Shown in pieces: positions 6,146-33,543 of a DNA stretch of 64,000 bases (position 1 is the stretch's first letter; each line of letters begins with the position of its first letter). The stretch spans positions 1 to 64,000 of the IMG/VR virus record IMGVR_UViG_3300030503_000212; one strand, given 5' to 3'. Below the pieces are notes generated by a model. The model saw nothing but the letters and a program-made list of their open reading frames with translations, was not told the origin of the DNA and did no database searches. The position numbers were made by a program, and so were the translations under genes. The DNA comes from a virus.

Positions 6146-6168
6146 GTGAGATTCTTTGAGAGTCACGC

Positions 6169-6174
6169 TATAAT
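6169..6174 (+). promoter_or_regulatory. Putative promoter (TATAAT) opening the RNA gene block
   Basis: TATAAT preceded by ACGC, 10 nt before the first base of the tRNA-like gene at 6184, so a transcript would start almost exactly at the RNA 5' end. A CAACAGTAAGTGAG motif copy lies about 20 nt upstream, around where a -35 would be. No terminator is seen until 8766, so this may drive the whole RNA block. Confidence 0.55.
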
Positions 6175-6183
6175 GGTTTCGGG

Positions 6184-6271
6184 ACGGGGATGGCGGAATT
6201 AGAAATTGGTATATGCCGTGCATAGCGCTAGGGTTGAGATACCCGTGCAGGTTCGACTCCTGCTCTCCGTC
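6184..6271 (+). tRNA. tRNA-like gene, Leu-like, anticodon unresolved
   Basis: The acceptor strands ACGGGGA (6184-6190) and TCTCCGT (6264-6270) pair over 7 bp. A perfect T arm (GCAGG-TTCGACT-CCTGC, 6247-6263) and a Leu-style TGGCGGAATT start of the D region are present. The length of about 88 nt and a GGGT/ACCC hairpin (6231-6244) fit a type II tRNA with a long variable arm. However, no 5-bp stem with a 7-nt loop and U33 can be found: the region between D and T arms is about 5 nt too long. A GAG (Leu) triplet occurs inside the hairpin. It may be a divergent working tRNA or a decayed one. Confidence 0.45.
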
Positions 6272-6689: not shown

Positions 6690-6693
6690 ATCC

Positions 6694-6898
6694 GAAAAGT
6701 ATTGAGGCCGCTCGTAGCGTGACAGAGATGCGTTAGCAGCGACTGCTCAGGGATCGGGCTCGAAAGAGAACCTCTACTCTGTGACGGTTAGGCTGGGGGC
6801 TGCTCCCACTCCAGATGTACAACAAGTCTTGCGCTTGCGTCGTGGTTATAAGGCCGAAGCTGACACAGTGTCAACTACGAGCGACCTCAATACTTTTC
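6694..6898 (+). ncRNA. Structured RNA element R2 with 24-nt terminal helix
   Basis: Positions 6694-6717 pair with 6875-6898 at 23 of 24 positions (one C/A mismatch). The interior holds further helices such as ACAGAG/CTCTGT (6724-/6776-) and GGGGGCTGCTCCC. The start of this element (6692-6706) can instead pair perfectly with 7301-7315 at the end of R4. No open reading frame of note lies on the plus strand. The 3' end abuts tRNA-Asn with a 7-nt gap. Confidence 0.5.
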
Positions 6899-6905
6899 AG
6901 AATGT

Positions 6906-7180: not shown

Positions 7181-7305
7181 TTGAGAGCTTACGGTAATAG
7201 TTGGTTGTGAAACCTCGTGAGGAGCGGAACTGCACTACTGATGTGAATCAGGAGCGACGGCGTTCTATCTGTTAGATCCATACTGACAAGCACGTAAGCT
7301 CTCAA
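7181..7305 (+). ncRNA. Structured RNA element R4 with 13-bp terminal helix
   Basis: TTGAGAGCTTACG (7181-7193) pairs perfectly with CGTAAGCTCTCAA (7293-7305), and two more pairs (one G-U) can be added outside. Inside are the hairpins CCTC-GT-GAGG, CTGAT-GTGA-ATCAG with a GNRA-type loop, and ATCT-GTT-AGAT. It shares GAGGAGCGGAA with R5. Its 3' strand continues into CTCAATACTTTTCGG (7301-7315), which also pairs with the start of R2. Confidence 0.5.
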
Positions 7306-7322
7306 TACTTTTCGGTAAAAGT

Positions 7323-7415
7323 TTCCCGGTGGTCGGCTGGGCCGTAACTCTCTTTACGCGTTGTGCTGGTGTGCATAGCAAGTTCACAGAGGAGCGGAAT
7401 GTAGACCATCGGGAA
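7323..7415 (+). ncRNA. Structured RNA element R5 with 12-bp closing helix
   Basis: TTCCCGGTGGTC (7323-7334) pairs with GACCATCGGGAA (7404-7415) over 12 bp with one G-U. Inside, the hairpin CGTAA-CTCTCT-TTACG (7343-7358) has a loop that can pair with AGAG (7388-7391), a possible pseudoknot. GAGGAGCGGAA (7390-7400) recurs in R4. The element is 93 nt with no tRNA signature. Confidence 0.55.
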
Positions 7416-7421
7416 TTCAGT

Positions 7422-7519
7422 TGGGAGTGTGGGGTAATCCACCTTAGTCAGATACCAAGGGCAACGGCCTTTACGTGAATGCCTCGAATCCCGGTTAGTT
7501 CTGTAGGCCCACACTCCCA
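7422..7519 (+). ncRNA. Structured RNA element R6 with perfect 12-bp closing helix
   Basis: TGGGAGTGTGGG (7422-7433) and CCCACACTCCCA (7508-7519) are exact reverse complements. Inside are the small hairpins GGT-AATCC-ACC and AAGG-GCAACGG-CCTT. It is 98 nt and begins 6 nt after R5. A 70-codon minus-strand ORF across R5/R6 is a by-product of the base pairing. Confidence 0.58.
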
Positions 7520-7526
7520 GTGATGT

Positions 7527-7629
7527 ACGAATGTAGCTCAGCGGTTAGAGCGCTATGGACCTGCGGAGGAGAAATCTGTTGATGCAAGCAAAGGTTCTGA
7601 GGTCATTGGTTCGAATCCAATCATTCGTG
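7527..7629 (+). tRNA. tRNA with elongated anticodon arm, possibly Cys (GCA)
   Basis: Acceptor ACGAATG/CATTCGT, D arm GCTC-AGCGGTTA-GAGC and T arm ATTGG-TTCGAAT-CCAAT are all perfect; CCA is not encoded. The D-to-T interval is 53 nt instead of about 22. It folds as an extended arm: GACCT/AGGTC (7558-7562/7600-7604), CGGA/TCTG (7564-7567/7596-7599), then TTG/CAA closing a 7-nt loop ATGCAAG with U33 and GCA at 7584-7586. I therefore tentatively call tRNA-Cys. A short insertion or a decayed anticodon region cannot be excluded. Confidence 0.6.
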
Positions 7630-7632
7630 CTA

Positions 7633-7725
7633 ATTTTGCAGTGTAAAACCTAATCCCAGGCGTGGGAACGGCGGCACTGGTGAGGAGATAATCCAACCCA
7701 GCTCGGTACGGCCACACTGCAAAAT
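7633..7725 (+). ncRNA. Structured RNA element R7 with perfect 12-bp closing helix
   Basis: ATTTTGCAGTGT (7633-7644) and ACACTGCAAAAT (7714-7725) pair without a mismatch. Inside, TCCCA-GGCG-TGGGA forms a hairpin. It is 93 nt and starts 3 nt after the tRNA discriminator base, so processing of the tRNA 3' end and of R7 would be linked. Between 7726 and 7779 I see only a leader with a CCTCCGGAGG palindrome that carries the ribosome site of the next ORF. Confidence 0.58.
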
Positions 7726-8061: not shown

Positions 8062-8104
8062 AGTGGGGCTCGCTGGGCCGTTAGCGCTTGGGCAGAGCCC
8101 CACT
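8062..8104 (+). ncRNA. Structured RNA element R9, perfect 10-bp hairpin
   Basis: AGTGGGGCTC (8062-8071) and GAGCCCCACT (8095-8104) pair without a mismatch around a 23-nt loop. The downstream bases are AAAAAG, not a T run, so it is not an intrinsic terminator on this strand. It may be a processing stem or a spacer between R8 and R10. Confidence 0.45.
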
Positions 8105-8113
8105 AAAAAGATT

Positions 8114-8252
8114 GATGTTTCCACCAAGAAATTACTGAGCCGCAGCGCTGATGTGAACAGGTTAGCTGCTCAAGGTCCCAAGTCACATTGGGGAACCGGG
8201 CCTCTGCAAGAGGTCTGAGCATAACGGACAGTAATTTCTTGGTGGGAACATC
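8114..8252 (+). ncRNA. Structured RNA element R10 with 24-bp terminal helix
   Basis: Positions 8114-8137 pair with 8229-8252 along all 24 positions, one being U-G. Inside are GAGC.GCAGC/GCTGCTC, CCCAA/TTGGG and CCTCT-GCA-AGAGG hairpins. It ends about 20 nt before a perfect copy of the dispersed palindrome (8274-8288) and the tmRNA acceptor piece. A helix this long is a plausible RNase III target. Confidence 0.55.
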
Positions 8253-8273
8253 ATTGAATACGCACGATGTGAG

Positions 8274-8288
8274 TCAACAGTAAGTTGA
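8274..8288 (+). repeat. Dispersed palindrome, perfect copy beside the tmRNA
   Basis: TCAACAGTAAGTTGA: arms TCAAC/GTTGA around AGTAA. It lies just upstream of the tmRNA acceptor piece, inside the presumed transcript rather than at a promoter. Confidence 0.75.
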
Positions 8289-8290
8289 TT

Positions 8291-8348
8291 CGAGAGCTTG
8301 AATGGAGTTTGTATTCGGACAGGTGTTCGACTCACCTCACCTCCACCA
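8291..8348 (+). ncRNA. ssrA: Permuted tmRNA, acceptor piece (3' half, encoded first)
   Basis: It contains a T arm AGGTG-TTCGACT-CACCT (8321-8337), then the 3' acceptor strand CACCTCC (8338-8344), discriminator A and encoded CCA (8346-8348). This strand pairs over 7 bp with GGGGGTG at 8479-8485, the start of the coding piece downstream, and gives a G3-U70 pair, the alanine identity mark of tmRNA. CTTGAA (8297-8302) pairs with TTCAAG (8512-8517), matching helix P2. The 3' half standing before the 5' half is the order of circularly permuted, two-piece tmRNA genes. The exact 5' end is not determined. Confidence 0.82.
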
Positions 8349-8478
8349 ACCAGCACATACGCGAATGTTTCCCAGTAAAGATTACGTTGCGCCCACCTAG
8401 AGGCAGGTTGGTCTATAACAACGTGAACCCCTACTGGGGGATAAGGAATTAAGCCTCATTCGATGTGTGCTGGTATGT
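8349..8478 (+). ncRNA. Permuted tmRNA intervening segment, removed on maturation
   Basis: It joins the CCA of the acceptor piece to the 5' G of the coding piece. ACCAGCACA (8349-8357) pairs with TGTGCTGGT (8466-8474) and CGAATG (8362-8367) with CATTCG (8457-8462). Further in are CCCAGTA/TACTGGG (8371-8377/8432-8438) and ACGTTG/CAACGT (8384-8389/8419-8424). The whole segment is thus an extension stacked on the acceptor stem, as expected for a spacer that brings both halves together before being cut out. Confidence 0.75.
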
Positions 8479-8765
8479 GGGGGTGTCACGGTTTCGACGG
8501 GTCGGATTTTGTTCAAGTAATTGTGCCGGGACTGGTACTCACCGAAGTCTCACATTAGGAATGACGCTTAGGCACATGACCCTAGTGAGGGGAACGAAAC
8601 GAGAGCTAAATCAAAAAGTGCCAACACTGTTGACACGGGCCGTAAGACTGCGAAGGTACTGGCATTCCCAGCACCTGTTGTTGCAGCTCCTATGGTTGCT
8701 ATGGCCGCTTAACAGGCGTCCGTCCGGAGGTGAGCAATATCCGTCGAAAGACCATGCTTACAAGG
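8479..8765 (+). ncRNA. ssrA: Permuted tmRNA, coding piece with tag reading frame
   Basis: It starts GGGGGTGTCACGG, then TTTCGACGGG, the hallmark tmRNA 5' region. The likely tag frame runs from GCC at 8620 to TAA at 8710-8712: 30 codons beginning ANTVDTGRKT and ending PMVAMAA. AAAAAGT just before GCC fits the A-rich resume context. A terminal Ala-Ala is the usual protease signal, but 30 residues is long beside the 8-15 of most bacteria. Hairpins follow the stop (GTCCGTCCGGA region), then the terminator at 8766. A long plus-strand ORF over this region (8465-9181) is not a gene. Confidence 0.8.
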
Positions 8766-8804
8766 TGCCCTGTACACAGAAATGTGTCTGGGGCATTTTT
8801 GTTT
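8766..8804 (+). terminator. Intrinsic terminator ending the RNA block
   Basis: Stem TGCCC-TG-TACACA / TGTGTC-TG-GGGCA with a GAAA tetraloop (8766-8795), followed by TTTTTGTTT. It is the strongest intrinsic terminator in the window and the first after the promoter at 6169. Confidence 0.85.
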
Positions 8805-8809
8805 CCCGC

Positions 8810-8815
8810 TACAAT
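8810..8815 (+). promoter_or_regulatory. Putative promoter -10 box (TACAAT)
   Basis: CGC-TACAAT just after the tmRNA terminator and 45 nt before the next gene. No -35 consensus. Confidence 0.5.
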
Positions 8816-31563: not shown

Positions 31564-31581
31564 CTGAACGAGGTGAGTTAC

Positions 31582-33543
31582 ATGGCAGGAAAGAAAAAGG
31601 CAGGCTACGCAGAGGCAGTTGCAACTGCTGTGCTGGATGAGGAGCTTGAGGACGATGGCTCAGTAATCGATATTGCATCATTGAAAGCATCGGTACTCAA
31701 AGAGATCGGCTTGCGAGTGTTCGAACCTGAGACTCGTTTCGTGCTCAAGATGAAGTTTACAGGTGCTGAATACCTGCATCGGACTATGGGCACGCCTTAT
31801 GGTCTCCCGTATGGCAAAATCTACGAGCTGAGCGGGGCTGAATGTCTTGCTGACGATACTTTTGTGCGGTTCACTGTTCTGAACCGTAAGGGTGAGCGTG
31901 TTAATAGTAAGGGTGGTACCATCAAACGCCTTTACGAGAGATTTCACGGGCTTGAAGTCCCCGGTAGAGGTAAATATCAGCGTAAGCAGTTAAAACATGC
32001 TACATACACTCTTGCGTCAGTTAACGAACAAGGCAGAATCATCAGTAATCAGATCGAAAATGTAGTGAAATCTGGTCGTAAGAAATGCTACCAGCTTACA
32101 ACAGAATCTGGTTATAGGATCGTAACATCAGCCGATCATAGGTTTTTCAATGGTAAACGTTATGTACGTTTAGAAAAACTTTCTGTCGGTGATACGGTGA
32201 TGATCCATAACAACACACCGTACAAAGTCGATCACGGACGGCTTATACGGCCTTACGTTGATGTGCTTGTACACAATCACCCATCAGCCCCAGATAAAAT
32301 TACTGTTGAGCCATCATCTGGAAAAGTTTACACATACAAACGGTTGAAACGTTCACGAGCTGTTGTTGAGGCAAAAATGAACGGTATGGTACTTACGGAT
32401 TATGTTGAGCTTTTGAATTCGGGAGACATTGCTGGATTACAGTTCCTTTCATCGGATCAGCATGTTCATCACATAGACGAAGATACGATGAACGATGAGC
32501 CTGATAATTTGGAGGTAAAAACTCCATCGGAGCACGGTGTATTACATGCTACAGAACGCCACAATAATCTCCGTTTTGTGATTGTGCCAGATGTGATCGC
32601 ATCGATTACTTGTGTTGGTGAGCGTGATACGTACGACATATCAATGCGTGTTCCGTTTAACAATTTCGTAGCCAACAATTTTGTTGTACACAACAGTCAT
32701 GGGAAAAGTGTGCTGCAAAAGCTGATCGAGGGTGAGGCACAAAAGGATGGTGCGGTTGTCATTCATGGTGATATCGAGGATTCAGACGATCCGCCTTGGA
32801 ATGTCAAACTTGGTGTTGACAACGATCAGTTGATTCTCGTCAAACCCAAGATGATTATTCTGTCGATGCCACAAGCCCATAAAGATGCCAACAAGGTTGC
32901 AAAAGAGGCTTGGACAGCAAAGCCCGCTGCGTGGAAACTGGAGCATCCGTATAAGCGCCCGTTCGATCCACCTCTACGTCCGCAGACAGCCGAGGAGATT
33001 TTTGAGGAGATTGAAAAGCTCGTCGAAAAGCTGCATGCAGCAGGTGTTGAGAAAATGGTAGTGGCAATCGACTCGTTAGCCAACCTATCTACCAAGATGC
33101 AGCTTGAGGCTGGAACGCATACCAACATGCGGACTAATAGCGACTTTCCTATGTTCCTGTCGCAGAACCTCAAGCGGTGGCAAACACTAGCATCGAATTT
33201 CAACATTATGGTGCTGCTCATCAATCAGATACGTGAAAAGCCGGGTGTTATGTTTGGTGATCCTATTTATGAGCCGGGTGGTCGGGCGTTGCGACATAAT
33301 TGTGCGTCGCGTAATCGGGCACGCAGGGCTGGAAACGGTAAAATATTCCTTGCAGGCAAACTCATTGGCATCAGCGGTATTCTTAAGAACACCAAGAATA
33401 AGTCTGGTGAGGGATCGATGGAACAGCAGATGTGTACGTACATGGTGGAGTGGAATGACAAGCCTTTGTACAAGCGCGTGTCATTCGGCCACTTTGTAGC
33501 TAAGGAAAAGCCTGACAAAAACGCGCCGGTGGATGCAGACTAA
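31582..33543 (+). CDS. RecA/UvsX-like recombinase interrupted by an intein
   Basis: 653 aa precursor; 369 aa after splicing. The exteins form a RecA-fold ATPase: GLPYGKIYELSGAE joined to SHGKSVLQKLIEGEAQ rebuilds the Walker A loop GAESHGKS. A Walker B region (KMVVAIDSLANLSTK) and NIMVLLINQIREKPGV with GGRALRHNCASR (loop and polymerisation region) follow. Pairs homologous DNA strands with the SSB upstream. The intein blocks the nucleotide site until it splices out. A weak GAGGTG precedes the ATG; a GTG nine nt earlier is the alternative. Confidence 0.85.
   Translation: MAGKKKAGYAEAVATAVLDEELEDDGSVIDIASLKASVLKEIGLRVFEPETRFVLKMKFTGAEYLHRTMGTPYGLPYGKIYELSGAECLADDTFVRFTVLNRKGERVNSKGGTIKRLYERFHGLEVPGRGKYQRKQLKHATYTLASVNEQGRIISNQIENVVKSGRKKCYQLTTESGYRIVTSADHRFFNGKRYVRLEKLSVGDTVMIHNNTPYKVDHGRLIRPYVDVLVHNHPSAPDKITVEPSSGKVYTYKRLKRSRAVVEAKMNGMVLTDYVELLNSGDIAGLQFLSSDQHVHHIDEDTMNDEPDNLEVKTPSEHGVLHATERHNNLRFVIVPDVIASITCVGERDTYDISMRVPFNNFVANNFVVHNSHGKSVLQKLIEGEAQKDGAVVIHGDIEDSDDPPWNVKLGVDNDQLILVKPKMIILSMPQAHKDANKVAKEAWTAKPAAWKLEHPYKRPFDPPLRPQTAEEIFEEIEKLVEKLHAAGVEKMVVAIDSLANLSTKMQLEAGTHTNMRTNSDFPMFLSQNLKRWQTLASNFNIMVLLINQIREKPGVMFGDPIYEPGGRALRHNCASRNRARRAGNGKIFLAGKLIGISGILKNTKNKSGEGSMEQQMCTYMVEWNDKPLYKRVSFGHFVAKEKPDKNAPVDAD
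31843..32694 (+). other. Intein with HNH-type homing endonuclease in the RecA-like gene
   Basis: 284 aa, starting at Cys (CLADDTFVRF) and ending FVANNFVVHN before a Ser (SHGKS), the standard splice junction Cys1...His-Asn/Ser+1. Block B (TTESGYRIVTSADHRFF) with the T..H and the C-terminal block F (RDTYDISM) are present. The centre carries VHHIDEDTMNDEPDNLEV, then SEHGVLHATERHN, an HNH nuclease signature. Inserted exactly in the P-loop, a common choice of homing elements because the sequence cannot vary. Confidence 0.88.

Follow-up and report, generated by a model that had tools for sequence, protein, structure and literature searches.

The window, a stretch of 64,000 nucleotides (positions 1-64,000 of the 107,763-base virus record IMGVR_UViG_3300030503_000212), carries on its plus strand a gene for a permuted tmRNA, a type of RNA that frees stuck ribosomes. 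The Rfam model tmRNA_permuted (RF04321) matches positions 8284-8712 with 56.7 bits against a curated cut-off of 47 (E = 2.2e-8 for the window, 8.8e-12 for the record as a whole), and ARAGORN, an independent method, calls a permuted tmRNA (tmRNA*) with a tag of 30 amino acids at 8252-8803, the extent that we adopt for the whole gene. An earlier note on this DNA had proposed that a phage here carries a tmRNA gene in permuted, two-piece form, a proposal borne out by both searches and by covariation in relatives; in the kind of covariance-model check that it suggested, the locus exceeds the cut-off of RF04321, and a chance match is ruled out. The likeness to RF04321 extends to the gene order, the tRNA-like domain, the G3-U70 pair, the encoded CCA, the spacer and the tag frame, whereas the length of the tag sets the window copy apart from the usual 10 residues.

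Direct reading of the bases placed every element named in the earlier note where it had been described. The 3' piece comes first in gene order (8284-8348, its 5' end approximate, as delimited by base reading, RF04321 and covariation) and contains one strand of P2 (CTTGAA, 8297-8302), the T arm (8321-8337, composed of AGGTG at 8321-8325, TTCGACT at 8326-8332 and CACCT at 8333-8337), the 3' strand of the acceptor (CACCTCC, 8338-8344), A8345 and an encoded CCA (8346-8348). A spacer of 130 nt follows (8349-8478; the median in our viral set is 84 nt), and then the 5' piece (8479-8765, as delimited by base reading, RF04321 and ARAGORN, with an uncertain end of the 3' tail), which opens with the 5' strand of the acceptor (GGGGGTG, 8479-8485), forming 7 bp with its partner and including the alanine identity pair G3-U70, and continues with TTTCGACGGG (8492-8501) and the second strand of P2 (TTCAAG, 8512-8517). 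The tag is encoded by an open frame of 30 codons, ANTVDTGRKTAKVLAFPAPVVAAPMVAMAA, at 8620-8712 (positions 369-461 of the gene in the ARAGORN call), which has a small hydrophobic end (...AMAA) and is closed by the stop codon TAA at 8710-8712. That the spacer folds back on itself, as had also been noted, was confirmed: an inverted repeat (8338-8357/8466-8485) joins the acceptor stem to the spacer ends, so that the spacer forms a long hairpin extending the acceptor stem, and the acceptor/spacer region of 171 nt has a predicted fold of -68.8 kcal/mol (z -5.2). A 247-nt region of the locus likewise folds with a z of -3.8. The spacer is expected to be cut out of the precursor.

Downstream of the 5' piece we recognized by eye a probable intrinsic terminator on the same strand (8766-8804), consisting of a hairpin (TGCCCTG...CTGGGGCA) followed by the T run TTTTTGTTT; the region 8755-8812 folds with a z of -3.3, and the list returned by a simple terminator scan did not include 8766-8804. 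Directly upstream of the gene lies a 141-nt element (8113-8253) whose 25-nt closing stem is 96% complementary (z -8.6) and which matched no Rfam family. Further upstream, an array of stem-closed structured elements is interspersed with tRNA genes between 6555 and 8106, among them 6691-6901 (z -4.3), 7181-7305 (z -3.9), 7322-7418 (z -5.5), 7422-7519, 7633-7725 and 8062-8106 (z -3.8); these matched no Rfam family, and in about 400 fetched viral loci they showed no similarity beyond matches to tRNA genes. One tRNA match in this array (7527-7629, 48.2 bits, 103 nt), which received no call in a standard ARAGORN run, has extra sequence in the anticodon arm that is possibly an intron. A tRNA-like sequence with a long variable arm (6183-6271), perhaps a tRNA-Leu, matches the tRNA-Sec model weakly and below its cut-off (25.9 bits), and a promoter-like site (6146-6174) lies just upstream of it.

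The gene belongs to a tailed phage, as indicated by the DNA polymerase, DnaB-type helicase, UvsX-like recombinase and terminase-like protein encoded in the window. Its DNA polymerase is at best 23-27% identical to those in phage records and the tmRNA region has no nucleotide match in isolated phages, which together mark the phage as very divergent; identity of the DnaB protein reaches 22-23% at best, and a terminase query of viral contigs returned no close relatives. A DNA polymerase query of the same contigs returned a single one, 53,561 bases long (IMGVR_UViG_3300030618_000021), in which the protein is 100% identical. It represents the window's own phage population, which may thus occur in more than one data set, and it contains no RF04321 match. 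Attempts to name a host from the DNA polymerase and DnaB matches were abandoned since the hosts matched were too scattered, and the terminase and tail sheath of phages with related tags fared no better for the same reason. The UvsX-like recombinase (31573-33543) has HNH endonuclease matches in mid-protein (residues 288-335), a pattern that suggests an intein or an inserted endonuclease.

The earlier note took phage tmRNAs such as that of mycobacteriophage Bxz1 to be one-piece molecules. The tmRNAs of mycobacteriophages share with the window copy that ssrA is borne by a phage (Bxz1, Wildcat and others; PMC4131195), and a permuted ssrA on a tailed-phage genome has likewise been described in the Methylophilales phage Melnitz and other aquatic phages (PMC9004378). 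The ssrA of Melnitz groups with Alphaproteobacteria and has a reported glutamine riboswitch (PMC9004378), unlike the tmRNA locus of the window, at which no Rfam riboswitch family was found. Nor does the window copy reach the clade-specific models, as beta_tmRNA (RF01850, cut-off 84), which matches the tRNA-like part only with 39.3 bits, was the sole best match of the clan and no match to alpha_tmRNA (RF01849, cut-off 50) was listed; we therefore do not place it in a classic clade. A beta match restricted to the tRNA-like part was also obtained for one of the relatives considered below (L286), and another, present in the two contigs L199 and L221, passes the alpha model with 59.5 bits.

The earlier note had regarded a permuted copy in a phage as a rarity, which did not hold up. 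A survey from 2022 reported 402 phages with tmRNA and 133 unique structures; 53 of these were two-piece, and marine or aquatic phages accounted for 50 of the 53 (PMC9004378). Our own permuted-tmRNA pattern matched at least 283 viral contigs, with 43 permuted loci in the spacer range of 110-140 nt and at least 120 for either of two ranges with shorter spacers. ARAGORN called 273 tmRNA* in the fetched viral set, a number that includes the window copy twice, and 190 of these have a tag of 10 residues. Phage-borne permuted tmRNA is thus already known, and as a common phage gene its presence alone should not be counted as unusual. What is unusual here is the tag, which the earlier note did not mention.

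The tag begins ANTVDTGRKTAKVLAFPA... and differs from the common ANDxxxALAA form; among the 115 distinct tags of a structurally selected set together with the window, 15 are at least 20 residues long. One of these, ATNRDSAKSAKVLAFPAMPEALPMAA, belongs to L199 and L221, contigs that had been found by structure and not by tag, and contains the segment AKVLAFPA identical to that of the window (8650-8673). When both tags were shuffled in 3,000 trials, a common run of seven residues arose once and a run of eight never. Across this core the window copy and L199 differ at five bases, all in third codon positions, and the codons thus point to a segment kept as a peptide; in the tRNA-like core, too, L199 and L221 resemble the window copy most (52 of 58 bases). 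Searches with patterns that contained the tag core added further permuted tmRNAs of uncultured phages (L285, L286/L287, L300, L308/L309/L397, L329, L338, L346 and L459), giving a set, defined in this analysis by a permuted tmRNA with a KVLAFPA-type core, of ten distinct tags including that of the window, a number that does not measure conservation of the core because the search patterns contained it. In isolated phages a tblastn search with a 27-residue query, which is an insensitive one, gave no match to the tag, and a text search of papers found no mention of the core.

Conservation of structure across this long-tag set could be assessed in nine distinct members. All 108 acceptor and T-arm cells are paired, and in 23 of them both partners have changed; the covariation score reaches 0.632 compared to 0.139 after shuffling, and G3-U70 is invariant in 9/9. 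We used the long-tag set for the acceptor control since most acceptor bases of the 281 pattern-found loci are dictated by the search pattern, which left an acceptor shuffle only five distinct acceptors to draw on. The RF04321 cut-off is exceeded in each of the eight long-tag records with a tmRNA that we searched, the window copy having the lowest score among the members listed, followed by L346 with 57.1 and the others with 79-98. Portal, terminase and tail families differ between the long-tag contigs (L285 and L300 share a portal family), suggesting either transfer between phages or long descent.

We consider it probable, at roughly 0.8, that the locus is a functional circularly permuted tmRNA gene with which a tailed phage rescues ribosomes and tags proteins. 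Neither the phage record nor nine other viral records that we searched (eight with tmRNA and the 53,561-base contig) yielded an SmpB, and the tmRNA would therefore depend on SmpB of the host; most likely the RNA is active, works with this protein and marks stalled products for proteolysis. From the anatomy of the gene and what is known of trans-translation, we infer the following course of processing, charging and tagging. Transcription of the plus strand would yield a precursor in which the spacer hairpin continues the acceptor stem, and RNase P together with 3'-end nucleases would remove the spacer, leaving two RNAs that stay joined through the paired acceptor and P2 strands. The molecule would be loaded by AlaRS, EF-Tu and SmpB of the host, be charged with alanine, enter stalled ribosomes during infection and append the long tag, with release at the TAA and proteolysis through the ClpXP-type ...MAA end of the tag. 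Among candidate binding partners of the AKVLAFPA core is a protease adaptor. Ribosomes would in this way be kept cycling and truncated proteins cleared while translation is strained. Two mature RNAs, as well as rescue and tagging during infection, are reasonable expectations from such a gene.

How much of this is peculiar to phages is a separate matter. The usual conjecture is that phage tmRNAs help with rescue in a general way. We regard it as possible but unlikely that the window copy belongs to a phage-specific class of permuted tmRNA, with a tag of 24-33 residues, a conserved KVLAFPA core and a role beyond plain ClpXP degradation; if this were true, tagged host or phage proteins might during infection be routed, for example, to a specific adaptor or location. 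Constancy of the core, against variation in the remainder of the tag, in the acceptor and in the phage backbone, would provide a testable handle on what the phage gains. The odds are about even that the tmRNA is instead an ordinary one and that its long tag, in no way phage-specific, was taken over by several phages from a bacterial host lineage not yet sampled, which can be reconciled with a functional tmRNA. A tag shared by contigs that differ in their portal, terminase and tail genes is expected under a shared host group, and the passing of the alpha model by L199 and L221 also speaks for it, as does the start of the L329 tag, ANTVVSFARK, which we take to resemble cyanobacterial tags. Against it, a strict pattern scan of 84,980 bacterial and archaeal species gave no match, an absence that is weak evidence as only about 4 of the 10 known tags would be picked up in this way. 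In a search for bacterial copies by a structure pattern, the sole match was a one-piece Kiritimatiellae tmRNA with the tag ANNDYALAA.

Readings in which rescue is secondary or lost appear less attractive. A phage tmRNA might compete with that of the host for SmpB and so weaken or redirect trans-translation, and there is precedent in mycobacteriophage DS6A, whose tmRNA consists of the tRNA-like domain alone; this RNA, or one like it, is described as inhibiting tmRNA (PMC4131195, PMC11915505). The failure to find a phage SmpB and the departure from the ANDxxxALAA form would fit such a decoy or modulator, which would however have no need of the full, conserved tag frame with stop codon retained in the window copy, and we hold this role to be improbable. 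We give still less credence to a non-functional remnant of a host tmRNA, acquired when a prophage excised imprecisely or remaining at a site of integration: mobile DNA commonly integrates at tmRNA genes (PMC4383910), yet the gene is complete, with an intact tag frame and a terminator-like hairpin, and pairing across the relatives is perfect with compensatory changes. A functional, phage-borne tmRNA thus remains the reading that we prefer.

Viral permuted tmRNAs vary in other respects. A complete tRNA-Asn gene lies inside the spacer of two of them (L264, 2407-2484, and L191), and a tRNA-Ala within the spacer has been described as a unique feature of one tmRNA (PMC11915505). At the other extreme, only 4 nt separate the CCA from the 5' G in L286 (1924-2281) and L287 (4240-4597). 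Tags of 26-29 residues that lack the AKVLAFPA core are encoded in L027, L097, L131, L163, L213, L217 and L276, and these long tags are alike in pairs, L097 with L217 and L131 with L163.
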